Origin: a virus | IMG/VR virus record: IMGVR_UViG_3300036861_000344 | Span: 1 to 27,534 of that record | DNA: 27,534 nt | Direction: 5' to 3' (one strand) | Part shown: positions 13,691 through 27,534 of the stretch, one piece after another | How positions within the stretch are numbered: position 1 is the stretch's first letter | Layout of the letters: the number at the start of each line of letters is the position of its first letter | Made by a program: the position numbers and the translations under genes | Notes under the pieces: generated by a model | What the model was told of the DNA's origin: nothing | The model's database searches: none | What the model saw: the letters and a program-made list of their open reading frames with translations, nothing else

Positions 13691-15013
13691 GTGTCCATCC
13701 TCAGCACTCTCCTGGAGCGACGCTCGATCGAGGACGCTCGCTGGCCGCTCACGTCCACGCGTCTCGTGGAGTGGCTGACCGGCGGGCAGAAGACCAGCTC
13801 CGGCATCTCCGTGAACGAGCAGTCGGCCATGAAGGTCGTGGCGGTCTATCGCGCCGTGGCGCTCGTCTCGGGGGCTATCGCCTCGCTGCCGCTCCAGGCC
13901 TTCCGAGCTACCGCTCAGCGGACGCCGTACTACTCGGCGTTCATCCGCGAGCCCCATTGGGACATGACCTCGATGGAGCTCTGGGAGACGGTGCTCTCAC
14001 ACCTGCTCCTATGGGGCAACGCCTACGCCGAGAAGCACCGTGATGCGTCGGGGCTGGTGCGCTGGATCCACCCACTTGCGCCTTCGCGGGTCAGTCCCCA
14101 GCGCGTCAAGCGCTCCGGTGGGAACCCCTGGGGCAAGGAGTTCGAGGTCACCTTCGACGACGGCCAGAAGAAGCGCTTCACGCCGGACACGATCCTGCAC
14201 GTCCGGGGGCCGTCCTATAACGACCTGGAGGGTCTCTCCCCCATCGGCGTGGCGCGGGAGGCTCTGGGTCTGGGCCTGGCGGCCGAGAAGTACGGGGCAC
14301 GGGTCTTCAACAACGACGCTCGGCCGGCCATCGCCCTCATCCACCCCAAGACCCTCAGCGACCCTGCCCGCAAGAACCTCTCAGAGAGCTTTCGTGCTCG
14401 CCAGGGAGCCGAGCACGCCGGCGGCTTCGCCCTCTTCGAGGAGGGCATGGAACTCAAGGAGTACGGCTTCCCGCCTCAGGACGCCCAGTACATCGAGAGC
14501 CGCAAGTTCACCATCACCGACATCGCTCGCCTTTACGGCATCCCGCCCCACCTCCTGGGAGACGTGGAGAAGTCCACGAGCTGGGGCACGGGCATCGAGC
14601 AGCAGGCCATCGGCTTCATCGTCTACACCCTGCGTCCCTGGCTGACACGGCTCGAGCAGCGGCTCTCGCGGGAGTGCCTGACGGGACCGAACGTCTGCCG
14701 CTTCAACACTGCCGACCTACAGCGCGGCGATGAGAAGGGGCGTGCAGAGGCCGCTGCTAAGTGGCTGCAATGGGGCGTCAAGTCCCGCAACGAGGTCCGC
14801 ATCGCCGAGGACCTGCCACCCGATCCCGGTGGCGACCACTTCATGGTCCCGGCGAACTTCAGCGTCCTAGACGAGAGCGGCCATCCCATCCTCGGTCGCC
14901 CGACGCCCCACGGACACCCTGAGCCCTCACCGCTGCTCGCCGACACCGAGCCGGTACGCCCGACACCCCAAGGCGGGAACGGGAACGGCCATGCCGTCCC
15001 GGTAGGAGGCTGA
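13691..15013 (+). CDS. Portal protein (HK97 family)
   Basis: A 440-residue protein, GTG start. Signature segments are in order: VNEQSAMKVVAVYRAVALVSGAIASLPL, HWDMTSMELWETVLSHLLLWGNAYAEK, IHPLAPSRV, ILHVRGPSYNDLEGLSPI, VFNNDARPAIALI, FTITDIARLYGIPPHLLGDVEKSTSWGTGIEQQAIGF, and TLRPWLTRLEQRLSRECL. These are typical of HK97-like phage portals. It forms the dodecameric ring at one capsid vertex through which DNA is packaged and to which the connector attaches. The C-terminus (after ~390) is Pro/Gly-rich and probably disordered. It follows terminase, the canonical order. Confidence 0.95.
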   Translation: MSILSTLLERRSIEDARWPLTSTRLVEWLTGGQKTSSGISVNEQSAMKVVAVYRAVALVSGAIASLPLQAFRATAQRTPYYSAFIREPHWDMTSMELWETVLSHLLLWGNAYAEKHRDASGLVRWIHPLAPSRVSPQRVKRSGGNPWGKEFEVTFDDGQKKRFTPDTILHVRGPSYNDLEGLSPIGVAREALGLGLAAEKYGARVFNNDARPAIALIHPKTLSDPARKNLSESFRARQGAEHAGGFALFEEGMELKEYGFPPQDAQYIESRKFTITDIARLYGIPPHLLGDVEKSTSWGTGIEQQAIGFIVYTLRPWLTRLEQRLSRECLTGPNVCRFNTADLQRGDEKGRAEAAAKWLQWGVKSRNEVRIAEDLPPDPGGDHFMVPANFSVLDESGHPILGRPTPHGHPEPSPLLADTEPVRPTPQGGNGNGHAVPVGG

Positions 15014-15014
15014 G

Positions 15015-15248
15015 ATGCCCTACGCGACGGTCGCCGACCTGCCCGCTCCGGTGCGTGAGCGTTACTCCGCGAAGTGCGCCCGGGCGTACATGCACGCCGC
15101 CAACTCGTCCTTTGAGGATGACCCCAAGGACGAAGGTAAGGCAGCTCGCATCGGCCATACCGCCGCGCAGCAGTGTGAGAAGGCCAACCGCTCCGAGGAG
15201 CGTAGCCAGCTCGCGCCCGAACTGGAGCCCTGCCCGGACTGTCTCTAA
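15015..15248 (+). CDS. ChaB-like protein, 77 aa
   Basis: ATG 15015 lies one base after the portal stop, with GGTAGGAGG upstream. The pattern MPYATVADLPAPVRERYSAK, then AYMHAANSSFED, then GKAARIGHTAAQQCE matches the ChaB fold (DLP-x2-V at the start, A-x-x-x-AN, AAxxxHxxA), a small domain found in bacteria and in phages. In phages it sits near portal or protease genes with unknown function; the historical 'cation transport regulator' name should not be taken as function. The C-terminus has CPDCL, an added CxxC. Confidence 0.7.
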   Translation: MPYATVADLPAPVRERYSAKCARAYMHAANSSFEDDPKDEGKAARIGHTAAQQCEKANRSEERSQLAPELEPCPDCL

Positions 15249-15793
15249 GCGGCCTTTGCGTCGGTCCAGCGCTTGCGCTGGTTGCACCGCTGGCAAAGCG
15301 TCTGGAGGTTCCCTGGGACGTTCGCTCCGCCCCGGCTCATGGCAATGACATGGTCGAGGCCACGTCCCGCCCCACACAATCGACAGACGGGCTGGCGTTG
15401 CCACAGAGCTAGAACGTCGTCCCGCGTAAGGCGGCCGGCGATGCCTGCCTCTTGGGCACGACGGTTGGCGGCCATTGCAGCCTGGTAGGCCGCGAGTCGG
15501 ATACGGGCGAGTGGTCTACGAGCTGCATTCCAGGCGCGGCGGCACTCCCAGCCGCAGAACCGGCGGCCAGTGTCGTGCGCCCATCGCTCGAACAGCCGCC
15601 CGCACTGCACGCAACTGACCTCGACCTGTTTGGTGCGCGTCTGGTTGCGGCGGCCGTAGGCCCCAGCACAGGTCCGTGAACAGAACCGCGCTCGACCGGC
15701 GCTGTGCAGGTCGCGCTTCACGGCGATCCCGCATTGAGCGCAGGTGAACTTGACGTAGTGGTAGACGCCGTTGCGCCTGCCCTTCACTCCCAT
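15245..15793 (-). CDS. HNH endonuclease with two zinc fingers, inserted on the minus strand
   Basis: A 182-residue protein, the only convincing minus-strand gene. Two N-terminal fingers of the C-x2-C...FC-x3-C type occupy residues 18-42 and 61-84. The C-terminal domain has CRLCG (137-141), LDHVIAMSRGG (146-156), NVPGNLQTLCQRCNQRK (158-174), a textbook HNH_1 motif with Asp147-His148, Asn162 and C167/C170 zinc ligands. It fills the gap between the ChaB-like and protease genes exactly: its 3' end overlaps the ChaB stop and its start lies 14 nt before the protease start. This is typical of a free-standing homing endonuclease that invaded an intergenic site. It would be transcribed from its own promoter, against the late operon. 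Confidence 0.9.
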   Translation of the reverse strand: MGVKGRRNGVYHYVKFTCAQCGIAVKRDLHSAGRARFCSRTCAGAYGRRNQTRTKQVEVSCVQCGRLFERWAHDTGRRFCGWECRRAWNAARRPLARIRLAAYQAAMAANRRAQEAGIAGRLTRDDVLALWQRQPVCRLCGAGRGLDHVIAMSRGGANVPGNLQTLCQRCNQRKRWTDAKAA

Positions 15794-15794
15794 C

Positions 15795-15800
15795 GGAGAG
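15795..15800 (+). promoter_or_regulatory. Shine-Dalgarno that selects the protease start
   Basis: GGAGAG lies 6 nt before TTG 15807, whereas TTG 15771 upstream is inside the opposing HNH gene and has no site. Confidence 0.5.
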
Positions 15801-15806
15801 ACAACC

Positions 15807-16895
15807 TTGGCGGAATGGTCGGCAGCACTGGTCAGCAGTCTACCCGACTCTGCGTTCGCGTGTATCGACGCGGGCGGTGAGAAGGACGAACAGGGAAAGA
15901 CTGTCCCTCGCTCCCTGCGGCATTACCCCCACCACGACAAGAGCGGCAAGGTCGACCTGCCGCATCTCCGAAACGCCCTCGCCCGTGTTCGTCAGGACGC
16001 CACGAGTTCCTGCGGCCGCGACCACTTGGAGGAACACGCCCGTGTGCTTGAGATCGGCGGCCGGGAGCGGCAGATGACACGAGCACTCCAACCCCTCATC
16101 GGACCGGAGCGCCGGTTCGTCGCCTTCGAGGCTGACCCGGCCGACGCCGAGGGTGATGGCGACCGACTCTTGTTCCGCGGCCATGCCGCGGTCTTCGGGA
16201 AGCGCGCCTATATCGGGCGCAAGCCCTACGGCTTCTGGGAGACGGTCCGCTCCGGTGCTTTTGCCAAGGTCATCTCCGACGGCGACGTGCGTCTGATGCA
16301 CAACCACGATCCGAACCTCGTCCTTGCCCGCTCGACGGTGAAGGAAGGCCCCGGCTCGCTTCACCTCGAGGAGCGCAAGAAGGGCCTCCACGTCGAGGCT
16401 GAGTGGGTGCCCACGAGCTATGCGCGAGACCTCCACGCCCTCGTTCGGTCCGGGGTCATCAACGGCATGAGTTTCAGCTTCCTGCCGGTGAAGGACGACT
16501 GGACGAGCAATCAGGAGGGCGAGGAGACCCGGGAGCTGCTGGAGCTCCAGGTCCCCGATGTCTCCACCGTCACCTTCCCTGCCTATAGCGAGACCGATGC
16601 TGCCGTGCGCAGTGCCGGCCTCGGCCTTCTCATGGATGCCACCGACCTGAGCGATGAGCAGCGTCTGCGCATCGTCCAGGCCGTGCGTCAGGGCGTCGTC
16701 ACACCCGATCTGGTGCCAGCTCTGCGAGCCGCCTCACGGGCACTCGTCGAGCTCACCGAGCGGTACGAGCCGGCTCTGGCCACTCGTGCGGATGCGGATG
16801 ACGAAGCGGATGTCCGTACCGAACAGATCTTCCTCCGCGCTCGGGCCCTGATGGCTCTGGCCGGGGACTACACGAAGGGAGCCAGAGTCCGATGA
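15807..16895 (+). CDS. Prohead protease (HK97/S78 family) with extra N-terminal domain
   Basis: A 362-residue protein starting at TTG 15807. Residues 1-90 (SSLPDSAFACIDAGGEKDEQG, RSLRHYPHHDKSG, VDLPHLRNALARV) are an N-terminal domain seen alone in many phages and resembling a DUF6582-type 'HxRNALAR' module; here it is fused to the protease. From residue ~103 (RRFVAFEADPAD) the S78 protease follows, with LLFRGHAAVFG, FWETVRSGAF, LMHNHDPNLVLAR (His165/His167) and VINGMSFSFLPVKDDW with likely nucleophile Ser222. It cleaves the scaffold-like part of the capsid protein and itself during maturation. C-terminal ~100 residues are helical and may act as scaffold. Its stop overlaps the capsid ATG. Confidence 0.9.
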   Translation: MAEWSAALVSSLPDSAFACIDAGGEKDEQGKTVPRSLRHYPHHDKSGKVDLPHLRNALARVRQDATSSCGRDHLEEHARVLEIGGRERQMTRALQPLIGPERRFVAFEADPADAEGDGDRLLFRGHAAVFGKRAYIGRKPYGFWETVRSGAFAKVISDGDVRLMHNHDPNLVLARSTVKEGPGSLHLEERKKGLHVEAEWVPTSYARDLHALVRSGVINGMSFSFLPVKDDWTSNQEGEETRELLELQVPDVSTVTFPAYSETDAAVRSAGLGLLMDATDLSDEQRLRIVQAVRQGVVTPDLVPALRAASRALVELTERYEPALATRADADDEADVRTEQIFLRARALMALAGDYTKGARVR

Positions 16896-18145
16896 CACCG
16901 TTGGAGGTTCGCGAGAAGCGAGCCTCGATCTGGGCCGACATGGAGGACATCCGCCTCCGTGCGGCGACCGAGAGCCGCAAGCTCTCGCAGGAAGAGACCA
17001 ACCGCTGGGAGGCCCTGGAAAAGGACCTCACCGAGTGGTCCGGGACGCTCAACGTCCTGGAGAAGGGCGAGAAGCTTGAAGAGCGCTTCGCCGCCCAGCC
17101 GACCGATGGTGCCGTGGAGACCACGGCGCTGACCATCGAGAAGGACGACGATCCCGAGAAGCGCTACGCCCAGGCCTTCGGCAACATGCTTCGCCGAGGC
17201 GTCAGCGACATCGCGCCGGAAGACCGCGCACTCGTCAGCGACAAGTTCGAGTCCCGCGCCGCGGGCACCGGCACGACCGCTGGTGGCTATCTGATCCCGG
17301 CGCAGTTCCGCCAGAAGCTCATCGAGACCCTCAAGTGGTACGGCCCCGTTCGCGACGTGGCCGAGGTCATCACGACCGACAACGGCGCGGACCTCCCCTG
17401 GCCGACCGTCGATGACACCGCCAACGTGGGCGCCATCCTCGCCGAGAACACGCAGGTCACAGAGCAGGACGTGACGTTCGGTCAGGCCATCCTCTCGGCC
17501 TACATGTACACGTCCAAGCTGGTGCGCGTCAGCCTGCAGCTCCTCCAGGACAGCGCCTTCGACGTGGAGGATTGGCTCACCGGAGCCCTGGGTCGGCGCA
17601 TCGGCCGGATCCAGAACACCCACTTCACCACGGGCACGGGCACGGGTCAGCCCGAAGGCATCCAGACCAACTCCACGATCGGTGTGACGGGCGGCGCGGG
17701 CACGGGCCTGACGATCTCGTACAACGACCTGGTGAGCCTGGTGCACTCGATCGACCCGGCCTATCGGGCGCGGGGCAACGGCGCGTTCATGCTGAACGAT
17801 GCGACCATCGCCGCGGTTCGGCGGCTGCGGGACGACTCCGGTGGCGCTGGTCTCGGCCGGCCCCTCTGGGAGCCCTCTGTCCAGGTCGGCCAGCCTGACA
17901 GCCTGATGAGCTACCCGGTCATCGCCAACAACGACATGCCGGTCATGGCCATCAACGCCAAGTCGATCCTGTTCGGCGACTTCCGCGCGGGCTACGTCGT
18001 GCGTGACGTGACCGACGTGCGGACGCTCCGCCTCGAGGAGCGCTACGCCGACTTCCTGCAGGTCGGCTTCCTGCTCTTCCAGCGGAGCGGTGGGCGACCC
18101 CAGGACCTGAACGCCTACAAGGCATACAAGAACGGCGCTTCGTAA
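16892..18145 (+). CDS. Major capsid protein (HK97 fold)
   Basis: A 417-residue protein, ATG overlapping the protease stop. The first ~105 residues are charged and helical (LEVREKRASIWADMEDIRLR, then coiled-coil-like LEKDLTEWSGTLNVLEKGEKLEERF), the delta/scaffold domain normally removed by the protease. The mature part begins near residue 125 with AGTGTTAGGYLIPAQFRQKLIETLKWYGPVRDVAEVI, then LPWPTVDDTANVGAIL, ALGRRIGRIQNTHFTTGTGTGQPEGI, and PVIANNDMP...ILFGDFRAGYVVRDVTDVRTLRLEERYADFLQVGFLLFQRSGG, all typical of HK97-like coats. It forms the icosahedral shell. This is the strongest anchor for the head module. Confidence 0.95.
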   Translation: MTPLEVREKRASIWADMEDIRLRAATESRKLSQEETNRWEALEKDLTEWSGTLNVLEKGEKLEERFAAQPTDGAVETTALTIEKDDDPEKRYAQAFGNMLRRGVSDIAPEDRALVSDKFESRAAGTGTTAGGYLIPAQFRQKLIETLKWYGPVRDVAEVITTDNGADLPWPTVDDTANVGAILAENTQVTEQDVTFGQAILSAYMYTSKLVRVSLQLLQDSAFDVEDWLTGALGRRIGRIQNTHFTTGTGTGQPEGIQTNSTIGVTGGAGTGLTISYNDLVSLVHSIDPAYRARGNGAFMLNDATIAAVRRLRDDSGGAGLGRPLWEPSVQVGQPDSLMSYPVIANNDMPVMAINAKSILFGDFRAGYVVRDVTDVRTLRLEERYADFLQVGFLLFQRSGGRPQDLNAYKAYKNGAS

Positions 18146-18149
18146 GAAG

Positions 18150-18217
18150 CGGCTGACGGCCGAACCGTCCGACTGGCCCACGTCACGGGCCACCTAACCC
18201 CCCGACTCTCCAGGAGG
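18150..18217 (+). promoter_or_regulatory. Two-hairpin leader element, copy 1
   Basis: After the capsid stop a small hairpin (CGGC/GCCG, 18150-18162) precedes the 11-nt linker AACCGTCCGAC, then hairpin TGGCCC/GGGCCA (18174-18192, 7-nt loop), a C-rich run and AGGAGG (18212-18217). Copy 2 at 18823-18890 has the same linker and order, with different but paired stem bases. It may be a partial terminator, RNA stabiliser or translational control element between capsid and downstream genes. Confidence 0.55.
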
Positions 18218-18227
18218 TGCTTCACCG

Positions 18228-18629
18228 ATGCCCGATCACAAGGGCGACCACGATCGCGTCGTGATGGCCAGCCGCCACCCTGACGGCTCGCCGGACCAGA
18301 CGCCCGACTTCACCTACATCGGCGACAAGGAGTTCTCCAAGAGCGCCACCGCCGAGCAGCTCAAGCAGCAGGCCGTCAGCGCGGAGGACGTGCGCCTCCG
18401 GGGTGCCGCCGCCGCCGGTGGTGGCGAAGGCGGCTCAGAGCCCGACGACGCTGTCCAGAAGCTCATCGACGCCCACGAGAGCGCGGCCAAGGGCGCTGAG
18501 AAGACCGCCAACGCGGAGGTCGACTCGAAGTTCGAGGATGTCGAGAAGGAGTCGGCTGAGGCTCGGCGAGCGTCGGGCTTCGAGACGACAGCCTCGGCAC
18601 CGGCGGCCGAGAAGACCGTCAAGCGCTAG
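18228..18629 (+). CDS. Hypothetical virion-associated protein, 133 aa
   Basis: ATG 18228 has AGGAGG 10 nt upstream after the two-hairpin leader. The protein is charged and low complexity: an N-terminal DHKGDHDRVVMASRHPDGS region, a Gly/Ala run (RGAAAAGGGEGGSE) and a long Glu/Ala/Lys helix (KLIDAHESAAKGAEKTANAEVDSKFEDVEKESAEARR) likely to form a coiled coil. Separate expression directly after the capsid gene suggests a decoration, scaffold-like or accessory head protein, but no family is recognised. Confidence 0.6.
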   Translation: MPDHKGDHDRVVMASRHPDGSPDQTPDFTYIGDKEFSKSATAEQLKQQAVSAEDVRLRGAAAAGGGEGGSEPDDAVQKLIDAHESAAKGAEKTANAEVDSKFEDVEKESAEARRASGFETTASAPAAEKTVKR

Positions 18630-18823
18630 TGGTCAAGGTGCGGATGCTCGACTCGGTGGCCGGAGCTGACATCGACTGGCAGCCCGGCCAGATCATCGAG
18701 ATGAGCGAAGCCGATGCAGCGAAGTGGGCTGACGGCGAGCGGGCGGAGCGTGTCGATGAGCACCGCTCGCGCAAGACCAAAGCCCGAGAAGTAGCCCAAC
18801 GAGGCGGCCTGACGGCACCGTAG
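18629..18823 (+). CDS. Small head-region protein, 64 aa
   Basis: GTG 18629 overlaps the previous stop by one base (TAGTG). The sequence VRMLDSVAGADIDWQPGQIIEMSEADAAKWADGERAERV fits a short phage protein that is frequent next to capsid genes: an SH3-like beta motif (WQPGQIIEMS) followed by a helix (EADAAKWADGERAE). Function is unsettled, perhaps head completion. A stem-loop follows directly after its stop. Confidence 0.65.
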   Translation: MVKVRMLDSVAGADIDWQPGQIIEMSEADAAKWADGERAERVDEHRSRKTKAREVAQRGGLTAP

Positions 18824-18890
18824 GGGCGCAACGAGACCCGCCCCAACCGTCCGACTGGCCGGCGTAACCGGCCATCCCCCCTTCAAGGAG
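18823..18890 (+). promoter_or_regulatory. Two-hairpin leader element, copy 2
   Basis: Stem GGGGCG/CGCCCC (18823-18828 with 18839-18844) begins at the last base of the preceding stop. The conserved AACCGTCCGAC linker follows (18845-18855), then stem TGGCCGG/CCGGCCA (18856-18874, 5-nt loop), C-run and AAGGAG (18885-18890) before ATG 18896. The order and linker match copy 1, and stem positions change on both sides, which supports a selected RNA structure. Confidence 0.58.
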
Positions 18891-18895
18891 TCCTG

Positions 18896-19144
18896 ATGGA
18901 CAAGCTCGACGAGGCGCTCGCTGCTGCCGCCAAGCTGACTGTGACGATGCGCCAGTTCAACGTGACCATCAGCTCGACCGGCCACCCTGCTGTCCTGGCT
19001 CTGCCCGAGGACGCCACCGACGCCGAGATCGCTGAGGTCGCGGGCTGGCTACTGACGGCGGTCATGAACGGCTACCGGGCTGAGCGAGCCAAGAGCCCTG
19101 CGGCGCGGCTCATTGTGCCCGCCGTGGCCTTACCCCGGAACTAG
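18896..19144 (+). CDS. Hypothetical protein, 82 aa
   Basis: ATG 18896 with AAGGAG 5 nt upstream, after leader copy 2. The protein is small and mixed alpha/beta: DKLDEALAAAAKLTVTMRQF, then NVTISSTGHPAVLALPEDATDAEIAEVAGWLLTAVMNGYRAERA. The 'LPEDATDAEIAEVAGWLL' helix is amphipathic. No signal peptide or cysteine. It lies in the virion gene block; function not recognised. Confidence 0.58.
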   Translation: MDKLDEALAAAAKLTVTMRQFNVTISSTGHPAVLALPEDATDAEIAEVAGWLLTAVMNGYRAERAKSPAARLIVPAVALPRN

Positions 19145-19153
19145 GAGGCCTTG

Positions 19154-19579
19154 ATGGCCGGCAAGAGCGACTACCTGGAGAACCGCGTTCTCGACCATTT
19201 CCTTGGTGGTGTGGCCTCCACAGCCCCAGCCACGGTCTACGTCGGACTGTTGACTACCGCGCCTAACGATGCCAGCACGTCCGGCTCACTCTCGCCGGGC
19301 GTGGAGGTGACGGGCGGTTCCTACGCCCGCGTCGCGGTCACCAATAACGCCACCAACTGGCCCGCCGCATCAGGCGGGGCGAAGGCGAACGGCACGGCCA
19401 TCACCTTCCCGGCTCCCTCTGCCAACTGGGGCGTGGTCGTCGCCTTCATCATCGCCGACGTCGCGTCAGGTGCCGGCAACATCCTCTACTGGGGACTCGT
19501 CACCCCCAACAAGACCGTGAACAACGGTGACCCAGCGCCTTCCTTCGCGATCGGTGACCTTGACGTCACGGAAGACTGA
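19154..19579 (+). CDS. Conserved phage virion protein, tail-fibre/adhesin-like
   Basis: A 141-residue protein; ATG 19154 has AGGAGG 5 nt upstream and is preferred to the adjacent TTG 19151. MAGKSDYLENRVLDHFLGG, APATVYVGLLTTAPND, GGSYARVAVTNNATNWPAASGG, KANGTAITFPAPSANWGVVVAFII and GNILYWGLVTPNKTVNNGDPAPSFAIGDLDVTED match a widespread phage family, mostly beta, seen near tail-fibre and adhesin genes of many phages. It is likely a virion surface or tail-tip component. Its stop overlaps the next ATG. Confidence 0.72.
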   Translation: MAGKSDYLENRVLDHFLGGVASTAPATVYVGLLTTAPNDASTSGSLSPGVEVTGGSYARVAVTNNATNWPAASGGAKANGTAITFPAPSANWGVVVAFIIADVASGAGNILYWGLVTPNKTVNNGDPAPSFAIGDLDVTED

Positions 19580-20694
19580 TGAGACGTACCCTCCTCGCAG
19601 CCCTCGGGGCCCTGGCAGTAGCCGGGGCCCTTCTGATTCGGCCCGATGCTCCTGTCTCGGGCCACCATTCTTCTGACCTAGCGAGCATGGACGCACGCGT
19701 GGATGCGCTGGAGTCACAGGTGGCCGAGCTCTGGATCGACTACCAGGCACGCAAGACGCCGAAGCCCACGGCGACGCCGCTACCGACCCCCACGCCGACA
19801 GTGGTGCCCACAGCCACCCCGACAGTGGTGCCTACCCCTGGTCCGACGGCCACTGTCCCGCCCCCGAGCGGCTTCGAGCTGCAATGGCCGCAATACCCGG
19901 CCTTTTGGACCCTCGGCGACATGGCCGATGTGGCGACCACGGGCCAGGACGCCTGGGATAGCTTCGATGACGTGGACTACGAGGGGCGCTGCGCTCCCGG
20001 CGAGTCCGGTGCGTTCTGTCCGGGGGACGGGATCAACGAGCGGTTTGAGATCGTCTCGGACCCGGCGGGTTCGGGCCGGTTGGTTATCCAGACGCTCAAC
20101 GTCTCGACCGACGTGGACGACCAGTACCCCAGCTCACCTTCGCACACCGGGGCATGGGCCAATCCTCGGGACCAGTTCGCGGGCGTCACGGCCTGCCATG
20201 CCTGGGGTGTCCTCTTCCGCGACGCGACGGAGTTCCCCCCGCCGGGCGGCTGGATGCTCGTCCATGAGGATCACTCCGGTGGTGGACCGCCGAACACCGC
20301 GCTAGAGGTCCTCGACGGCCCTGACGCGGACACGGCTCGCAATGAGCTGGGCTACCGCGTGCGCAACGGCTCAGGCGCCGATATCGGCATCGTCTATGAC
20401 CTCGGCCCCTTGGCCTACGGTCACTGGCACTACATCGTCTCCTGCGTCCGCTTCGACAACGGGACGGCAGGCTGGGCGCGCATCTGGCACTCGCTCGATG
20501 TGACGCCAGACGTGACCGGCCCACCGACCGGCGAGCGGACGGGCATCGACATGACCTGGGCTGACGGCTTCACCTGGCTGGGCATCTACCGCCAGCCGCT
20601 GCCATCGGGTGAGAGTCAGACGGTCTACTTCTGGGGCTATGGCCGAAGTGCCGGTGATCCGGCGCGGGCGGTGGCCCTGGCGCAGCTCCCCTAG
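19579..20694 (+). CDS. Secreted protein: signal peptide, PT-rich linker, ConA-like (polysaccharide-lyase-like) domain
   Basis: A 371-residue protein, ATG overlapping the previous stop. Residues 1-~25 (RRTLLAALGALAVAGALLIRP) form a signal peptide. Residues 33-56 (SDLASMDARVDALESQVAEL) look like a coiled coil, and 59-97 are a Pro/Thr/Ala linker (PTATPLPTPTPTVVPTATPT) partly from a 24-bp tandem repeat (CCGACAGTGGTGCC at 19795 and 19819). The C-terminal ~270 residues (ERFEIVSDPAGSGRLVIQTLN, HAWGVLFRD, TALEVLDGP, YGHWHYIVSCVRFDNGTAGWARIWHSLD, DMTWADGFTWLGIYRQ) have the beta-sandwich pattern of heparin-lyase-like polysaccharide lyases. It may bind or degrade surface glycans. A Sec signal on a protein in the head block is unusual. 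Enzyme class not certain. Confidence 0.7.
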   Translation: MRRTLLAALGALAVAGALLIRPDAPVSGHHSSDLASMDARVDALESQVAELWIDYQARKTPKPTATPLPTPTPTVVPTATPTVVPTPGPTATVPPPSGFELQWPQYPAFWTLGDMADVATTGQDAWDSFDDVDYEGRCAPGESGAFCPGDGINERFEIVSDPAGSGRLVIQTLNVSTDVDDQYPSSPSHTGAWANPRDQFAGVTACHAWGVLFRDATEFPPPGGWMLVHEDHSGGGPPNTALEVLDGPDADTARNELGYRVRNGSGADIGIVYDLGPLAYGHWHYIVSCVRFDNGTAGWARIWHSLDVTPDVTGPPTGERTGIDMTWADGFTWLGIYRQPLPSGESQTVYFWGYGRSAGDPARAVALAQLP

Positions 20695-21768
20695 ATGCCC
20701 GTCAGCCGAGCCCGCTACGCCTCGCCCGCGATCGGGTCATTCATGCTCATGGACCAGGCGGCTCTAGTGGCCCTGCCAGCGTCAGGCTCGGCTTGGGACG
20801 CCATCATCACCGCCTCTGATGCGGCGGCCGGGACGCCCAACCTCGCGGACATCAACACCCTGACGCATCAAAAGGTGGCCTTCGCTAAGGCCCTCCGTTA
20901 CGCCCGCGTGGGCGGGAGTACCTACCGCAGCGACGCGCGGGACCTCATCCTCGCTGCCATCGGCACGGAGGACAACGGGTCCGGGGCGGACGGGGCGCTC
21001 GCTCTCTCCCGTCAGTTGGCGCCATACGTCATGGCCGCCGACTTCATCAACTTGCGTGGCCTGTCGGTCGGCGACGACAACACCTTCCGCACCTGGCTGA
21101 GCACCATCTGCACGAAGGTGGTCGGCTCCCACGGCCTGTGGTTCACCGTCCGGGGCACGCACGAGAACGCGCCTGCGAACTGGGGCTGCCTGGCCGGCGC
21201 ATCGCGCATCGCGACCGCCATCTACCTGGGCGACACGACCGACATCAACTTCGCGCGGGTGGTGCTCCAAGGCTTTCTCGGCGACCGGACAGCCTACTCG
21301 GGTTTCCTGGCGCTGTGGCAGCCGGAATACGACGAAGAGCGGACCTGGGCCTGCTCCCCGGACCTGTACACGCCCATCAACCCGGCCTGCACCCTGAGCA
21401 CCATCAACGTGGATGGCGTCATCCCGGTGGATACCCCGCGCGATAGCGTGTCGACGCAGGTGACGCTCACCTGGCCCCCGCCTCCGGTCGGCGTCAACTA
21501 CACCCTGGAGGACCTCCAGGGGCTGATCGTCCAGGCCGAGCTTCTCAACCGACGCGGGTATCCGGTCTACACCTGGTCATCGCAGGCGATCAAGCGGGTG
21601 GGCGAGATGATCGAGCGTTCCCGCCTTGCTGGCGGCACGGGTTGGATCGACTTCGCCGTCAACGACCACATCCCCTGGGTGCTGAACAAGCGGTACTCGA
21701 TGGGACTCGCCACGCGAGCAGCCGGGTGGGGTCGCATGTTCGGCTTCACCGACTGGCTCTACCAGTAG
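20695..21768 (+). CDS. Alginate-lyase-like alpha-toroid protein, paralogue 1
   Basis: A 357-residue protein with ATG immediately after the previous TAG. Repeated helix pairs occur: VAFAKALRYARVGGSTYRSDARDLILAAIG, ALALSRQLAPYVMAADFINL, NWGCLAGASRIATAIYLGDT, LEDLQGLIVQAELLNRRGYPVYTWSSQAIKRV, DFAVNDHIPWVLNKRYSMGL, FTDWLYQ. The composition and 'ALRYARxG...Y' start resemble alginate lyase (PL5) and related alpha/alpha-toroid lyase folds of phage depolymerases. Possible catalytic residues (Asn/His/Tyr) occur around GTHENAPANW and NDHIPW. It is the first of a tandem pair. No signal peptide, so it is likely a virion protein. Function inferred from fold pattern only. Confidence 0.65.
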   Translation: MPVSRARYASPAIGSFMLMDQAALVALPASGSAWDAIITASDAAAGTPNLADINTLTHQKVAFAKALRYARVGGSTYRSDARDLILAAIGTEDNGSGADGALALSRQLAPYVMAADFINLRGLSVGDDNTFRTWLSTICTKVVGSHGLWFTVRGTHENAPANWGCLAGASRIATAIYLGDTTDINFARVVLQGFLGDRTAYSGFLALWQPEYDEERTWACSPDLYTPINPACTLSTINVDGVIPVDTPRDSVSTQVTLTWPPPPVGVNYTLEDLQGLIVQAELLNRRGYPVYTWSSQAIKRVGEMIERSRLAGGTGWIDFAVNDHIPWVLNKRYSMGLATRAAGWGRMFGFTDWLYQ

Positions 21769-22857
21769 ATGGTCCTCCAGCACGGCCGGGACGTGACCAG
21801 CCCGGTCATCCCCCTGGGGCCGTACCTGCTCATCGACGCGGGCGAACTGGCGGCCCTGCCCACGAGCGGCACGGCCTATACCAACATGCTCGCCTACGCC
21901 GACGCGGTGTGGCCCACGCAAGATATCCAGGACCCCGTCAACCAGCATGCTGCCCATGTCCTGGCCGGAGCTCTGGTCTACGCCCGCACCGGCACCGGTT
22001 CCTACCGGACCAAGACGCAGACGGGGATCATGGCCGTCATCGGCACCGAGGGCTCGGCCTCAGGACCGGCCAACGGTGTGCTGGCGATGGCTCGCCATCT
22101 CTCCAACTACGCCCTGGCGGCTGACCTCATCGGGCTGGGGGCACTTTCGCCGACCGACGATGACTCGTTCCGCACCTGGGCCGGCGCCATGCGTGCGCAG
22201 AACATCGGTAGCCATGCTCGCTGGAAGAACCTCCGCTACACCCACGAGGATGCGGGCTCGAGCTGGGGCAGTCTGTCGGGTGCGTCACGCATCGCCGTCT
22301 CGGCCTATCTCGGCGATACCAACGACCTCGCAGCAGCCGACCTCGTGTATCAGGGCTTCCTCGGTGACCGCACCAAGTGGATCCACACCGACGCGCTCAC
22401 CAACTACCCCGATCGCGTGTCATGGTCGTGCGCTGGCGACGCCACTGCGGCGCCCATCAACCCCGCCTGCACGCTCTCGGGCATCAACGCCAACGGCTTT
22501 ATCCCGGTCGAGATCGCACAGACCACCAGCGGCGATCAGGTCCTGACCTGGCCGCCCGCCGATGAGGGCATCGACTACCAGACCGAAGCCCTGCACGGGC
22601 TCATGGTCCAGGCCCAGCTCCTCTATCGCCAGGGCTACTCCTCGGCCTGGCTCTACTCCGACCAAGCGTTGAAGCGCGCAGCCGATGTCATCACCCGCTC
22701 AGGCGACGCCGCCGGCCGGACCTGGAACGAGGGCAACACGGTCAAGCGCAGCATCCCCTGGCTGCTCAACAGCATCTACGGCACGACCTACCCCACCGTC
22801 CAGCCCATCGGGCTGGGGCTGAACATCAGCCACACCGATTGGCTCTATGGCGGCTGA
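21769..22857 (+). CDS. Alginate-lyase-like alpha-toroid protein, paralogue 2
   Basis: A 362-residue tandem paralogue of the preceding gene, ATG directly after its TAG. Shared blocks include HVLAGALVYARTGTGSYR, IGTEGSASGPANGVLAMARHLSNYALAADLIGL, SLSGASRIAVSAYLGDTNDL, VYQGFLGDRTKW, PINPACTLSGINANGFIPV, EALHGLMVQAQLLYRQGYSSAWLYSDQALKR, RSIPWLLNSIYG and HTDWLYG. The extent of similarity over the whole length points to duplication followed by strong divergence. Both have an internal WPPxxxGxxY loop before the final helices. Different substrate specificity of the two copies would be one reason to keep both. The stop overlaps the next gene by 11 nt. Confidence 0.65.
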   Translation: MVLQHGRDVTSPVIPLGPYLLIDAGELAALPTSGTAYTNMLAYADAVWPTQDIQDPVNQHAAHVLAGALVYARTGTGSYRTKTQTGIMAVIGTEGSASGPANGVLAMARHLSNYALAADLIGLGALSPTDDDSFRTWAGAMRAQNIGSHARWKNLRYTHEDAGSSWGSLSGASRIAVSAYLGDTNDLAAADLVYQGFLGDRTKWIHTDALTNYPDRVSWSCAGDATAAPINPACTLSGINANGFIPVEIAQTTSGDQVLTWPPADEGIDYQTEALHGLMVQAQLLYRQGYSSAWLYSDQALKRAADVITRSGDAAGRTWNEGNTVKRSIPWLLNSIYGTTYPTVQPIGLGLNISHTDWLYGG

Positions 22858-24016
22858 CTTCTGCTGCACTGGCGGCTGTGGTATCGCCGTCGTCGGCACC
22901 GGGAACATCCAGCGTCACTGGAATGTGCTCATCGGGACCGTGGCCGTAGAGACGACCATCGTCCCGCCGGGGATGCCCGCGTCGTATAAGTTCGGCGCCA
23001 CCGCCGTGGATGGCTCGCTGGCCTACACCATCGCCCGGAAGTTCGTCGCCGCGCGCTTCTATATCTACTGCGACAACTGGCCCTCGGCGGGCATCTTCCC
23101 GCTCTTCTCGGCCAACGCCAACGGCGCCTTCTCGGTCCAGCTCGGCACGACCGGGCTGATGTTCTGCAAGGTGGGCGCTGGAGCCAACAGCGGGACCGTC
23201 CAGCTCACCCTCGATACCTGGCATCGCGTCGATGTCCTGTTCGACTCCAATACCGGCACCGGCTCGGCGAAGATCAGAGTGGACGGTGGGACCGAGCAGA
23301 CCGCCACGAATGTCCAGACCAGCGTCAACATGACCTCGGCCCGCATCGGACTCGGGGCCACCGCCTCGGGACCGATCTACATCGCCGGGTTCATCCTGGG
23401 TACCGCTGCCGCCGATTACCCCTGGGGCGCGGGCAAGGTCATCGCCGACCGGCCCACGCGGGACTCGGGCCATTCGGTGGGTGCGGGCGCGTTCGTGGAC
23501 GATCTTGGGGCAGCCCTGTCCAACGCCACCACCACGGCCTGGCAGCGGCTCGACGACCCGATGACCGGCGCGAGCCCGTTCATCAAGCAGACCGTCAACG
23601 ATGGGGCGGGCTACATGCAGGTGGGCTTCGCTGCCACCAGTGAGACGGGCAACGCTCGCTCCCTGTGCATCACGGCCTCGGTCCGCGCCGACACCACGGG
23701 CGCGAACCAAAGCAAGGTCGTGGTCAACGACAACGGCACGCTGGTCGATGCCTGGCCGGGTACCTCGGATTTCTCCGACTTGACCAACTCCTACCCCTCC
23801 AAGCAGTACGCCACCGCTCCCTCGGGCGGGGCCTGGATACCCGCTCGGGTGGACGGCCTGCTGGTGCGTATCGGCCATGGCCTGCTCATCCCCGGCGCGC
23901 CCATCTTCCAAGGCATCGTGCGCGAGATGGAGTACGCCATCAGCGCACCGGCCGAAGGTGCGCGAGGGATGCAACTCATATCTCGCACCGCACAACATCG
24001 GGCATCCCGCTGGTGA
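22847..24016 (+). CDS. LamG/ConA-like lectin-domain virion protein
   Basis: A 389-residue protein; ATG 22847 lies within the end of the previous gene. After a Cys-rich start (FCCTGGCG) the N-terminal 200 residues are beta-rich: NIQRHWNVLIGTVAVETTIV, ARKFVAARFYIYCDNWPSAGIFPLFSANANGAFSVQLGTTGLMFCKVGAG, TLDTWHRVDVLFDSNTGTGSAKIRVDGGTE, SARIGLGATASGPIYIAGFIL. This is the LamG/ConA-like sandwich (TWHRVDVLFD and IRVDGG are hallmark strands) common in phage tail and fibre proteins. The second half (VIADRPTRDSGHSVGAG to end) is another domain of beta character. It probably binds glycans or another host ligand. Confidence 0.75.
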   Translation: MAADFCCTGGCGIAVVGTGNIQRHWNVLIGTVAVETTIVPPGMPASYKFGATAVDGSLAYTIARKFVAARFYIYCDNWPSAGIFPLFSANANGAFSVQLGTTGLMFCKVGAGANSGTVQLTLDTWHRVDVLFDSNTGTGSAKIRVDGGTEQTATNVQTSVNMTSARIGLGATASGPIYIAGFILGTAAADYPWGAGKVIADRPTRDSGHSVGAGAFVDDLGAALSNATTTAWQRLDDPMTGASPFIKQTVNDGAGYMQVGFAATSETGNARSLCITASVRADTTGANQSKVVVNDNGTLVDAWPGTSDFSDLTNSYPSKQYATAPSGGAWIPARVDGLLVRIGHGLLIPGAPIFQGIVREMEYAISAPAEGARGMQLISRTAQHRASRW

Positions 24017-24028
24017 GAAAGGATCGGC

Positions 24029-24496
24029 ATGGCTAAGGCTGGCTACACCGTCACCACAGAGGGAGCCGTGGCCCTCGCGGCCGCAGGGACGGCCAAGACG
24101 ATCCTGGCTATCATCGCGCCGGCCCAGTTCGGTATCGACCTCAAGAAGGTCTACTTCTCCTTCGATGGCGTGACCGCCTCGGAGAAACCCATCCTGGTGG
24201 AGATCGTGCGCTTCACGACCGATGGCACGGGCACGGCGGTGACCGTCGCGCAGGCCTACGGCCCGACCATCACGGCAGGCTTCACGGCCAAGAAGAACTA
24301 CGGCACTGAGCCCACCACACCGACCGTCCTGGCAGCCCTGGAGTTCGACCCCAACAAGGGCTCGGTCATCTACGACTGGCCGCTGGCCGAGACCTACGAC
24401 ACGGCCGTCTCACAGGTCATGGGCGTGCGTATGACCATCCCCACTGGTGGCGCCGCAGTCAACGCACGGGTGACGCTCGGCTTCGAGAGGACCTAA
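24029..24496 (+). CDS. Conserved phage structural protein, 155 aa
   Basis: ATG 24029 with AAAGGA 5 nt upstream. The pattern LAIIAPAQFGIDLKKVYFSFDGVTASEKPILVEIVRFTTDGTGTAVTVAQAYGPT and TAKKNYGTEPTTPTVLAALEFDPNKGSVIYDWPL is recognisable in many phage genomes near lectin and repeat proteins, predicted as a beta-sandwich virion component. MTIPTGGAAVNARVTLGFER ends it. The exact role (decoration or fibre) is unclear. It belongs to the accessory block. Confidence 0.68.
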   Translation: MAKAGYTVTTEGAVALAAAGTAKTILAIIAPAQFGIDLKKVYFSFDGVTASEKPILVEIVRFTTDGTGTAVTVAQAYGPTITAGFTAKKNYGTEPTTPTVLAALEFDPNKGSVIYDWPLAETYDTAVSQVMGVRMTIPTGGAAVNARVTLGFERT

Positions 24497-24499
24497 GTC

Positions 24500-25303
24500 G
24501 TGGCCCGTCTGGGCCGCGCCCGGCGCCTTTCCCCGGTCCTCCAACGAGGCCTAGTCGCTGCCGCTGGAGCCGATACGGCTCTTGCCGGGTCGAGTGCCGG
24601 CAGCTCCTCAGCATCGGGCGTCCTTACCACCCAGGTCCGTCTCGCTGGTTCCTCCGCTGGCGTCGCGACCGCTTCCGGAGCCCTAACCACTCAGATCCGG
24701 CTGGCAGGGACCTCGGCCGGTGTCGGGACCGCTTCCGCAAGTCTGACGACCCAGATACGCCTGGCTGGATCGTCAGCGGGCGTGGGGACGGCGCAGGGCT
24801 CGCTGACGACAGCCATCCCGCTCGCGGGGTCCTCTGCGGGCACAGCGACCGCCTCCGCTGGCCTGACGACCCAGATTCAGCTCGCTGGGGCATCGGCTGG
24901 CACCTCGGACGCCACGGGCATCCTGTCCAGCACCGGGGATGTCGCTCTTCACGGAGTGACTGCGGGCTCTTCGTCGGCAGCGGGCATCCTGTCCACGGCC
25001 ATCAGCCTGGTCGGCTCGGCTCCAGGGACATCCACTGCCGCAGGTTCTCTCGCGACCGCCATCGCGCTGGCGGGAGTAGCAGCGGGTGGCTCGACGGCAG
25101 CGGCTCAACTCGCCACGGCGATTGCTCTCGCCGGACAGTCAACGGCGTCGTCGGGCGGGTCGGGGGCCTTGTCCGTCATCGTGGCCACGGTTGGTGGCTT
25201 CCCGCCGCGCCTGTCGGTGAGAAGCGCCTCTCCTCGGTTGCGCGCTGAGACGGACGTGCCTGTCCTCACCGCCTCCTCGCACGTACCGGAGATTGACGGT
25301 TGA
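24500..25303 (+). CDS. Protein of ten 20-residue repeats
   Basis: A 267-residue protein, GTG start. From residue 28 to ~229, ten tandem 20-residue units (one 22) of consensus LAGSSAGxxTASGxLTTxIx are seen, made of small residues (A, G, S, T) with a hydrophobic at two fixed positions. This resembles beta-solenoid or fibrous phage repeat proteins. The first five units are nearly alike, while later ones diverge, suggesting 60-bp expansion. The C-terminal ~40 residues (GFPPRLSVRSASPRLRAETDVPVLTASS) form a non-repeat cap. The protein may be a fibre, spacer or head-surface protein. Its stop overlaps the TTG of the connector gene (TTGA). Confidence 0.75.
   Translation: MARLGRARRLSPVLQRGLVAAAGADTALAGSSAGSSSASGVLTTQVRLAGSSAGVATASGALTTQIRLAGTSAGVGTASASLTTQIRLAGSSAGVGTAQGSLTTAIPLAGSSAGTATASAGLTTQIQLAGASAGTSDATGILSSTGDVALHGVTAGSSSAAGILSTAISLVGSAPGTSTAAGSLATAIALAGVAAGGSTAAAQLATAIALAGQSTASSGGSGALSVIVATVGGFPPRLSVRSASPRLRAETDVPVLTASSHVPEIDG
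24581..25186 (+). repeat. 60-bp tandem repeats encoding LAGSSAG units
   Basis: Ten in-frame units, nine of 60 bp and one of 66 bp, with GCTGG and CTGACGACCCAGAT-like segments recurring at the same phase. Spacing is contiguous and the frame is kept, so these are coding repeats and not a CRISPR array. Confidence 0.75.
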
Positions 25304-26190
25304 TTCACCTCACGGTCACCCTGACCCGCTCATCCGCCGACATCCTCCGAGACTACGGAGCCAACGCGAAGCTCCATGTCCAGCGCGACACGACGGCTGC
25401 CTTCCTGGCTCCGGTCGACCTCCCGCTCATCGCCATCCTCGATGGCACCGAGAGCTACGAGACGGCTGACTCGAATGGCACGGCCAGCTCTTGGTATCGG
25501 AACCGCTATGAGGACAACACCGCCGCTAACGCGTCGCAGTGGTCGACCCCAGAGCAGCCGGATCAGGACACCTACGCCACGCTTGACGATGTCCTACGGA
25601 CGTTCGGCAACGACGAGCCCTCCACCGCCAAGCAGGCACGCTACTCGGACCTGCTGCGGGTGGTCACGGACGAACTGACGGCTGAGATCGGACGGGACTT
25701 CTTCCGTCACCCGGCTGTCTCGGGCACGGAGACGCGCTACTTCACCGCTGATAGCAAGCGGAGATTGCACGTCCACGAAGGCATCATCCCGGGCTCTATT
25801 GTGAGCGTGAAATACGGCACCTATGGCTCGACACTTACGACCGTCAACGCGGCTGACTACCTGACCGAAATAGTCGACGGGGCCATCGTCCACCTCGACC
25901 TGACGGGGGTCGGGACGACGCTGCAGGAATGGCCTACGGGCGACTACGAGGTCGAAGTGGTGGCGGCCTTCGGTCATGCCACACCGCCCGTCCGGCTCCG
26001 CGAGGCTACGGTGGCACGGGTCCGTCAACTCGTCGGAGCGGACCCGTCCGTGCAGGGGGGAGTGCCTGGTCCCCCCGAGCTGGGCGGTCGAGGGGGCACT
26101 TGGGCTTCGGCAGGTCTCATCCGCTGGCCGGACGTGACCTATCGGGCCATCGACCACTACCGGCGGCGCTTCGCCGCCTGTTACGTCTAG
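25300..26190 (+). CDS. Head-tail connector (gp6-like) with N-terminal Fn3-like domain
   Basis: A 296-residue protein, TTG start overlapping the upstream stop (TTGA). The first ~87 residues (LTVTLTRSSADILRDYGANAKLHVQRD, IAILDGTESYETADSNGTASSWYRNRYED, WSTPEQP) have the beta pattern and 'SWYRxRY' segment of phage fibronectin-like domains. From ~88 (TYATLDDVLRTFGNDEPS, YSDLLRVVTDELTAEIGRDFFRHP, ETRYFTADSKRRLHVHEG, GDYEVEVVAAFGHATPPVRLREATVARVRQLV) it is a head-tail adaptor of the HK97 gp6/gp15 type. It should bind the portal and receive the stopper. The extra beta domain may contact capsid or carbohydrate. Connectors are usually about 100-200 aa, so this is a fusion. Confidence 0.8.
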   Translation: MIHLTVTLTRSSADILRDYGANAKLHVQRDTTAAFLAPVDLPLIAILDGTESYETADSNGTASSWYRNRYEDNTAANASQWSTPEQPDQDTYATLDDVLRTFGNDEPSTAKQARYSDLLRVVTDELTAEIGRDFFRHPAVSGTETRYFTADSKRRLHVHEGIIPGSIVSVKYGTYGSTLTTVNAADYLTEIVDGAIVHLDLTGVGTTLQEWPTGDYEVEVVAAFGHATPPVRLREATVARVRQLVGADPSVQGGVPGPPELGGRGGTWASAGLIRWPDVTYRAIDHYRRRFAACYV

Positions 26191-26597
26191 TGATCGAGTT
26201 CGATGTGCGCGGCCTGCCTGAGGCCAAGCGCCTCCTCGATGAGTTCCAGGGCAGGGCACTCGACAAGCGGGTCAAGAACGGCCTGCGAGCGGGTGCCAAG
26301 CGCCTCCGTCCTCCCCTCCGGGCAGCGGGAGCGCAGCGGAGCCAGCGCGTGGGGAAGTCGGTCGGCTACCGCACCAAGGGTCACAACGTCATCGTCGGGC
26401 CGCGCTTCTTCACTTGGCTCTTCTTTGAGCGAGGCACGAAACCCCACGGCATCCCCATCGGGCGCGGACCGTCTGCGGGGCGAGTCATCCCCCACCCCGG
26501 CCAACGTCCTACGCCCTTCGTGGGTCCGACCTTCGACGCCCAGCGGAGCGGGGTCGAGCGGGACATCGAGGCCAAGATGTTCGAGGGCCTGCGCTAG
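26190..26597 (+). CDS. HK97 gp10-like neck/tail protein
   Basis: A 135-residue protein, GTG overlapping the preceding TAG by one base. It begins VIEFDVRGLPEAKRLLDEFQGRALDKRVKNGLRAGAKRL, a helix typical of the family, followed by the diagnostic VIVGPRFFTWLFFERGTKPHGIP and HPGQRPTPFVGPTFDAQRSGVERDIEAKM. HK97 gp10-like proteins form the head-tail junction and complete the neck. The position between adaptor and tail-completion genes fits. Confidence 0.85.
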   Translation: MIEFDVRGLPEAKRLLDEFQGRALDKRVKNGLRAGAKRLRPPLRAAGAQRSQRVGKSVGYRTKGHNVIVGPRFFTWLFFERGTKPHGIPIGRGPSAGRVIPHPGQRPTPFVGPTFDAQRSGVERDIEAKMFEGLR

Positions 26598-27083
26598 ATG
26601 GCTGGTGAGAGCGAGGTCTGGCTCGACGCCATCGCTCGGGTGGCCGCAACCATCGAGGGCATCAAGGCCGCCAAGGCTTACGCCGGAGGGAAGGGCGGAG
26701 CTCCGGCGACGGTCGTCAAGCCTCTTCCGGATGTGCTCCAGGAAACCCCTGCGGCTCTCGTGGTCATGCGCGAGGGCGAGATCCTAGCCGGGACTTGGGA
26801 GCGTCAGACGCACACCGTCGAACTCCAGATCTACTTCTCCCGCGAGGACCTTGGGGATGCCTACGGGGAACTGACCAAATACCCCGCCCGTGTGGGCATG
26901 GCCTTTGAGGCGCACTCCAAGGCCTTCCTCGCATCGGGTGTGCAGTCGTCGATCCCACTCAACTACCGCATCGAGGACGTGGAGTGGCCGATCACGCCCG
27001 AGGGTCCCTGGCCGCTCTACATCGTCCTCATCTGGGACATCCAGGTGAAGGTCAACATCCCGCGCAACTACCAGGCCGCCTGA
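26598..27083 (+). CDS. Tail completion/terminator-like protein
   Basis: A 161-residue protein, ATG directly following the upstream TAG. WLDAIARVAATIEGIKAAKAYAGG, VVKPLPDVLQETPAALVVMREGE, WERQTHTVELQIYFSRED, YPARVGMAFEAHSKAF, and YRIEDVEWPITPEGPWPLYIVLIWDIQVKV suggest the alpha/beta fold of siphovirus tail completion proteins, which cap the tail tube and join it to the neck. Order (neck protein, then this, then the major tail gene region) supports the call. Homology cannot be confirmed by eye. Confidence 0.65.
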   Translation: MAGESEVWLDAIARVAATIEGIKAAKAYAGGKGGAPATVVKPLPDVLQETPAALVVMREGEILAGTWERQTHTVELQIYFSREDLGDAYGELTKYPARVGMAFEAHSKAFLASGVQSSIPLNYRIEDVEWPITPEGPWPLYIVLIWDIQVKVNIPRNYQAA

Positions 27084-27093
27084 AAGGAGCCCC

Positions 27094-27510
27094 ATGCCTG
27101 ACGAGGAGAAGCTCAACCAGTCGGAGCCCGATCCTCCGGTCCTCATCTTCATGGGCGACCCCGACTCGGGCGAGCCGCACATCCCCGGAGTCCCCGCGCG
27201 GGACTTGACCGCGCACGACATCAGCCGCCTCGTCTACCGGGGCGTGATGACGCCCGAGCATCGCTTCCTGACACCCGACGACAAGGGCTTCGAGAAGGCC
27301 GCAGCGCACGTCGGAGAAGTGCTTCTGGCGCGCTACATCCCGGGCACGTCCGACCCCCTCTACGCCGCAGCGACGGCCCAGGGCAAGCCCAAGAGCACCA
27401 CTGACAAGGGCCGCAAGGCAGCCGCCCAGAAGGTCGGCGATGCGGCCGCCGATGTTCCACCCGCACCTGAGCCAGAACCGACCGTCGTGGTCGCACCCCC
27501 GGAGGTCTAG
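27094..27510 (+). CDS. Hypothetical tail-region protein, 138 aa
   Basis: ATG 27094 with AAAGGAG upstream. The central part PHIPGVPARDLTAHDISRLVYRGVMTPEHRFLTPDDKGFEKAAAHVGEVLLARYIPG resembles a short 'IPGVPARDLTxxDI' motif found in small phage virion proteins. The C-terminal half is low complexity (Lys/Ala then PAPEPEPTVVVAPPEV) and probably disordered. It is located immediately before the presumed major tail protein. Function unknown. Confidence 0.62.
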   Translation: MPDEEKLNQSEPDPPVLIFMGDPDSGEPHIPGVPARDLTAHDISRLVYRGVMTPEHRFLTPDDKGFEKAAAHVGEVLLARYIPGTSDPLYAAATAQGKPKSTTDKGRKAAAQKVGDAAADVPPAPEPEPTVVVAPPEV

Positions 27511-27513
27511 GAG

Positions 27514-27534
27514 ATGCCCGAGCTCGTGTTCCAC
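27514..27534 (+). CDS. Start of the next gene, probably major tail protein (truncated)
   Basis: ATG 27514 follows a GGAGGTCTAGGAG stretch, and the frame MPELVFH is open to the window end. The position after connector, neck and completion genes is where siphoviruses usually encode the major tail tube protein. Only seven codons are visible, so the product is a positional inference. Confidence 0.4.

Follow-up and report, generated by a model that had tools for sequence, protein, structure and literature searches.

Organization of the locus

We examined a block of genes in a 27.5-kb fragment from a temperate phage whose head genes are of HK97 type (IMG/VR record IMGVR_UViG_3300036861_000344, positions 1 to 27,534; hereafter the window). 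The block lies between the genes for the major capsid protein and the head-tail adaptor and encodes a bead protein of the Gp80 family, the lyase-like proteins PL371, AL357 and AL362, a LamG-like candidate (Lam389), a 155-residue protein (o155) and a repeat protein (rep267). We consider it probable that this block is an operon for a bead-and-rope virion fibre of the type found in podophage GP4, likely located near the portal vertex or neck, with the glycan-type proteins either carried as fibre cargo or exported. The fibre type is already known; its cargo and its genome position are unusual here.

A preliminary description of this DNA had placed about 6 kb of carbohydrate-associated genes between the capsid and connector genes, and the block is real, with open reading frames (ORFs) and gene order as described there (Table 1). 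The tail-fibre-like, lyase-like and repeat genes that it listed are all recognised. The LamG-like label comes from a weak match to phrog_2448, with no match in Pfam. To the remaining genes of the block, Pfam and PHROG assign no clear family.

In the left part of the window, PHROG matches identify a methyltransferase and an integrase, followed by terminase, portal, protease and capsid genes. An HNH endonuclease gene on the opposite strand between the portal and protease genes is likely a homing-type insertion into the head operon. A homologue of the 133-residue protein encoded directly after the capsid gene is present in the majority of the 80 major capsid protein loci that reach past the capsid gene (tblastn). 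Because the fragment does not reach the genes for the tube, tape measure and tail tip, the canonical fibre position was examined in relatives. Positions 15000-27534 of the window have no megablast match in phage records.

Table 1. Features of the block and of the genes bordering it, with positions in the window.
Feature	Position	Strand	Evidence
HNH endonuclease	15245..15793	-	phrog_1271, 2.5e-20
Major capsid protein (left border)	16892..18145	+	phrog_10, 2.7e-71
133-aa protein, outside the fibre cassette	18228..18629	+	tblastn; conserved directly after the capsid gene
82-aa protein	18896..19144	+	ORF only
Gp80-family bead protein	19151..19579 (ATG at 19154)	+	PF23140, 7.3e-38; phrog_240, 5e-22; PDB 8jou chain, 5e-7
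PL371	19579..20694	+	Signal/anchor-like N-terminus, coiled-coil-like stretch, Pro/Thr linker, ConA-type polysaccharide-lyase-like domain; PF14099, 2.6e-6
AL357, polysaccharide-lyase-fold protein, motif partly eroded	20695..21768	+	PF05426; AlphaFold2 (AF2) model
AL362, tandem paralogue of AL357, motif more eroded	21769..22857	+	45% identity
LamG-like jellyroll candidate (Lam389)	22847..24016	+	Weak phrog_2448, 2.4e-5
o155, 155-aa protein directly upstream of rope	24029..24496	+	61-46% identical proteins in L179-L184
Rope candidate rep267	24500..25303	+	(V/M)ARLGR N-terminus, ten ~20-aa units, 38-aa C-terminal tail; lag 20, z 23.9
Head-tail adaptor (right border)	25300..26190	+	Weak phrog_137, 0.012; 32% identity to L022 4465-5319
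Neck protein	25929-26597		phrog_5, 5e-13

A bead protein of the GP4 fibre I family

The bead protein scores 130 bits against the Pfam family PF23140, for which the cut-off is 27. This family takes its name from gp80, the fibre I protein of podophage GP4, and by sequence the window Gp80 belongs to the GP4 fibre I bead family. The protein also matches PDB chain 8jou_a, and entry 8jou (Zheng et al. 2023) contains ten copies of that chain. In GP4, fibre I is reportedly present as five chains, each of five gp80 dimers joined by an elongated rope protein, attached to the head at its tail vertex. Homologues of the bead protein have been found in virions. The homologue in the GP4-like phage JC1, gp53, was detected in CsCl virions with 59% coverage (PMC9144972), and the Gp80 homologue of phage phiM5 is annotated as detected in particles.

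The preliminary description had suggested that the proteins of the block coat the capsid, binding or cutting matrix glycan from the head lattice. Consistent with such a coat are the position directly after the capsid gene and the PHROG label 'head protein' carried by phrog_240, which the bead protein matches. However, no block protein matches a decoration family in Pfam or PHROG, the structural precedent for Gp80 is a discrete fibre, and a lattice-bound protein needs no repeat rope. The idea of glycan-type appendage genes in an unusual slot is retained, while a coat covering the whole capsid is very improbable.

A rope candidate with a 20-residue period

The last gene before the adaptor encodes rep267, which consists of a VARLGR N-terminus followed by ten units of 20 residues (one of 22) with the consensus LAGSSAGxxxASGxLTTxI. 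The units were delimited by hand; automatic counting gave nine, overlooking the last, degenerate unit. The best lag of rep267 is 20, with a z of about 24 over shuffled sequences, compared with -0.8 to 3.0 for the other window genes tested, and the repeat is not due to chance.

Genes with a similar period are recurrently linked to Gp80. We retrieved 50 IMG/VR loci with Gp80 alone and defined as near those genes at positions -2 to +6 relative to it. A significant period of 18-22 residues was found in 22 of 270 near genes versus 2 of 405 others (Fisher 1.2e-7), and a period of exactly 20 in 15 near genes versus no far gene. Among 40 non-redundant loci, 20 have a repeat gene near Gp80. As a control, loci were collected through the capsid protein instead. 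Here 5 of 989 genes in 80 capsid-relative loci have a period in this range, and three of these five correspond to the repeat regions that neighbour Gp80-like beads in L002 and L022. Among cultured phages, a best lag of 20 was obtained for the gene adjoining the Gp80 homologue in seven of seven cases (BcepIL02, BcepMigl, Itty13, PBC5 and POI1126 of the GP4 group, together with C72C1 and phiM5; z 0.9 to 11), although three of the seven score weakly (z under 2.5) and five are GP4-related. In these GP4-group relatives the periodic gene directly follows the bead gene.

We infer that rep267 threads the Gp80 beads. The ten units of rep267 equal the ten bead chains of 8jou in number, an agreement that is suggestive only, and unit numbers differ among other ropes.

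Position of the cassette in related phages

Capsid relatives of the window show three states: a cassette between capsid and adaptor (L022), a cassette between portal and protease (L002), and no cassette (L045 and L003). In L022, a near-complete record, the capsid gene is followed by genes for a homologue of the 133-residue protein, a phrog_240-type bead, a 204-residue protein, a repeat protein and the adaptor. The L022 adaptor (phrog_442, 1e-15) is homologous to that of the window. The same phage also encodes a tail-tip protein of about 1000 residues with a carbohydrate-binding domain after its tape measure. L002 carries a bead and a rope between its portal and protease genes. In both L045 and L003 the 133-residue protein gene is followed directly by a connector-type gene; L045 encodes a pectate-lyase-like spike after the tape measure.

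Related orders are found elsewhere. L084, which has a capsid of another family (phrog_1623), shows the order capsid, Gp80, two small genes, rope, adaptor-like gene, tube and tape measure, where the adaptor-like gene is named by its position and length and has no PHROG match. In L181 the adaptor is followed by Gp80, a signal-bearing beta-helix-like protein, a GH16-like protein, o155, the rope and tail genes, and in L184 the order is capsid, adaptor, Gp80 and o155. Throughout L179-L184, relatives of o155 adjoin Gp80-like genes, rope genes or both. Given the gene orders in L022, L084, L181 and L184, the head-tail junction is a recurrent site of the cassette, but not the sole one. The preliminary description had allowed for close relatives in which these are true tail-fibre genes with another set of connector genes upstream. 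This is not the arrangement found, as the fibre genes of L022 are followed by the adaptor and those of L084 by the adaptor-like gene, the tube and the tape measure. Attachment of the fibre at the neck is likely in view of these positions.

A further position within a head module is seen in L086 (1999-11635), where Gp80, variable genes and a rope with a 20-residue period lie between terminase-like and portal-like genes. This cassette is followed by an acyltransferase-like gene, a gene for a ConA-like protein with coiled-coil and proline-linker segments, and a glycosyltransferase-like gene. Glycosyltransferase-like and methyltransferase-like genes also occur within the head operon beside the Gp80 cassettes of L181 (667-2599) and L184 (2415-5302).

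The genes of the block abut or overlap, some stopping directly at the next start, and the last is coupled in the same way to the adaptor gene. The GC content is flat across the block (0.65-0.68), and no promoter-like site was found in it using the sigma-70 consensus only. An inserted moron-type cassette, the other possibility raised in the preliminary description, would be a recent arrival with its own promoter and no relation to virion structure. In its favour, the block varies in presence among relatives, being absent from L045 and L003. However, the flat GC content, the lack of a promoter-like site and the stop-to-start coupling both within the block and with the adaptor gene make a moron hardly credible.

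Flexible chains of beads at the neck are also known from the Anabaena myophage A-1(L), whose neck fibres (gp80, gp81 and gp82) have a putative carbohydrate-binding module at the tip and beads that join head to tail without a rope (PMC10966104). No PF23140 match and no 20-residue period was found in A-1(L) gp80-82. Despite a similar appearance in micrographs, the A-1(L) neck fibre is by these tests an analogue of the window cassette rather than a relative.

A domain resembling CarboxypepD_reg was noted in several of these systems. It occurs in the C-terminus of the L002 rope (L002 7136-8569; 3e-6) and, as judged by eye, in the small gene ahead of the L084 rope (L084 11136-11618). A-1(L) gp82 (L201), a protein anchored at the neck through its N-terminal domain, matches very weakly (0.11). 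Such domains could be a common neck anchor of L002, L084 and A-1(L) gp82.

Lyase-like and LamG-like proteins

AL357 matches the Alginate_lyase family PF05426 above the cut-off (5.6e-6, 26.5 bits). An AlphaFold2 model built from 26 aligned sequences has a pLDDT of 90.6, and its best structural match is the PL5 alginate lyase A1-III (Z 24.3, rmsd 3.0, 281 residues aligned); the lower-ranking matches are lyases too. According to this model, AL357 has the all-helical polysaccharide-lyase fold of PL5-type alginate lyases such as A1-III and AlgL. AL362 has no Pfam match and would share the fold through its identity to AL357.

A conserved motif in this family is altered in both window proteins. In the closest cellular relatives of AL357 the motif reads NNWG, and in a comparison with 24 relatives the two asparagines are present in 23 and 24 of the sequences, respectively. 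Unlike these relatives, AL357 has ANWG and AL362 has SSWG, and an arginine that is invariant in the relatives is replaced by glutamine in AL362. PL5 lyases have a known NNH motif, which is not present in AL357 or AL362. The motif at the corresponding site is not conserved in either protein, the equivalence of the sites being drawn from the motif and not from residue-level superposition. This erosion suggests that activity has been lost in AL362 and is doubtful in AL357. Because the conserved motif is eroded, glycan binding appears likelier than cutting for both.

The 28 cellular relatives of AL357 are mostly from Chloroflexota and Actinomycetota, a range that hints at a host in one of these phyla. 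Many of them start with signal-like leaders and carry Pro/Thr-rich linkers. No window structural gene was found beside the bacterial relatives when prophage context was looked for. One lyase relative of this type is encoded on a contig labelled as a Klebsiella pneumoniae metagenome-assembled genome (L172), which is probably mis-binned. Another relative, in an unrelated phage (L144 9153-10945), has a signal-like leader and an intact NNWG and directly follows an amidase-like gene, indicating that this lyase family occurs beside lysis genes as well.

PL371 falls just below the cut-off of the Polysacc_lyase-like family PF14099. Of the window genes tested, it alone encodes a strongly hydrophobic N-terminus (2.51), and since its signal- or anchor-like N-terminus is unique in the block, PL371 may be exported or membrane-anchored rather than packaged. 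For the LamG-like candidate, a single-sequence AlphaFold2 prediction reached a pLDDT of 31 and was not used. Searches of phage records by tblastn with AL357, PL371, Lam389 and o155 gave no matches, and IMG/VR scans with AL357 alone, the adaptor or Lam389 retrieved no relatives.

These proteins raise the possibility of a mixed operon, in which Gp80, o155 and the rope are virion components while PL371 and the AL357/AL362 pair are secreted or anchored at the surface and alter the host exopolysaccharide, as an aid to release or for superinfection exclusion. This would be compatible with a bead-and-rope fibre. The N-terminus of PL371, the glycan-type proteins with similar N-termini in the o155 cassettes of L179 and L181, the leaders of many cellular AL357 relatives and the amidase-like gene next to the L144 homologue are all in agreement with it. 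However, AL357 and AL362 lack a signal-like N-terminus, their conserved motif is eroded, and signal-like N-termini are not enriched near Gp80 (1 of 134 versus 2 of 209). We regard a mixed operon as possible, though doubtful.

Assessment of the fibre interpretation

Several observations weigh against a neck fibre of this kind. About half of the Gp80 loci have no repeat protein above the threshold, and the repeat of L022 has a period of 18 rather than 20. We called rep267 a rope on the basis of its period and its gene neighbours; the name does not reflect homology to the GP4 rope. The equivalent protein of BcepIL02, gp56, has no PDB match, and searching for rope homology through the PDB gave nothing. 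In JC1 the rope homologue gp54 is absent from the list of virion proteins (PMC9144972). Lyase-type cargo is not general among Gp80 contigs, and lyase domains were rejected as a general companion of Gp80 (PF05426 in 0 of 50 contigs, PF14099 weakly in 1 of 50). Finally, Gp80 cassettes are also found in baseplate regions or downstream of the tape measure gene, as in Lietuvens, mycobacteriophage CharlieGBrown, L180 and several HK97 contigs. Gp80 by itself therefore cannot place a fibre at the neck.

The last point is what would be seen if the same bead-and-rope fibre were mounted on the tail tip or baseplate, with the gene position an accident of module shuffling. However, the two closest carriers in the capsid clade, L022 and L002, hold their cassettes among head genes, and after its tape measure L022 encodes a separate large tail-tip protein that bears a carbohydrate-binding domain. 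Additionally, GP4 fibre I reportedly sits on the head, at its tail vertex. Mounting at the tail tip is accordingly unlikely.

The proposed fibre shares with GP4 fibre I a bead of the same Pfam family, and GP4-group relatives, like the window, have a gene with a 20-residue period near the bead gene. The window differs from GP4 in being HK97-type and siphophage-like by gene content, and in having lyase-like genes between bead and rope. Its cassette also lies between capsid and adaptor in gene order.

In the mechanism that we propose, Gp80 would be the bead and rep267 the rope, with every unit of about 20 residues docking one bead subunit, and o155 would act as a linker or cap. The products of the cassette would form flexible fibres attached close to the neck or portal vertex. 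PL371, AL357, AL362 and the LamG-like protein may act on extracellular polysaccharide as fibre cargo; alternatively, PL371 may be an enzyme that is exported or anchored in the membrane. Such a fibre, whether or not it carries lyase-derived cargo, would retain the virion in the exopolysaccharide that surrounds the host cells.

A broader proposal, which we offer tentatively and consider rather doubtful, is that these genes represent a widespread modular class of fibres. The repeat of about 20 residues in the rope would be a docking code for Gp80, with one unit per bead subunit and rope length setting fibre length. The interval between bead and rope would be a slot for cargo, filled here by a duplicated and eroded lyase that serves as a glycan-binding module on a head-proximal fibre.

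Implications

Genes annotated as hypothetical or as tail fibres are scattered oddly in many phage genomes, and the association described here gathers them into one recognisable unit, a Gp80 bead with a neighbour of approximately 20-residue period. This combination is a simple marker for bead-and-rope fibres in metagenomic phages, and it yields a testable idea, namely that fibre length is set by the number of repeats. The cassette would gain in interest if the 20-residue unit proved to be a docking code for beads and the two lyase-like proteins proved to bind glycan and leave it uncut. If the interpretation is correct, it adds another way in which lyases of host type that act on polysaccharides are acquired by phages and given a new use, possibly in binding, close to the head instead of at the tail tip.

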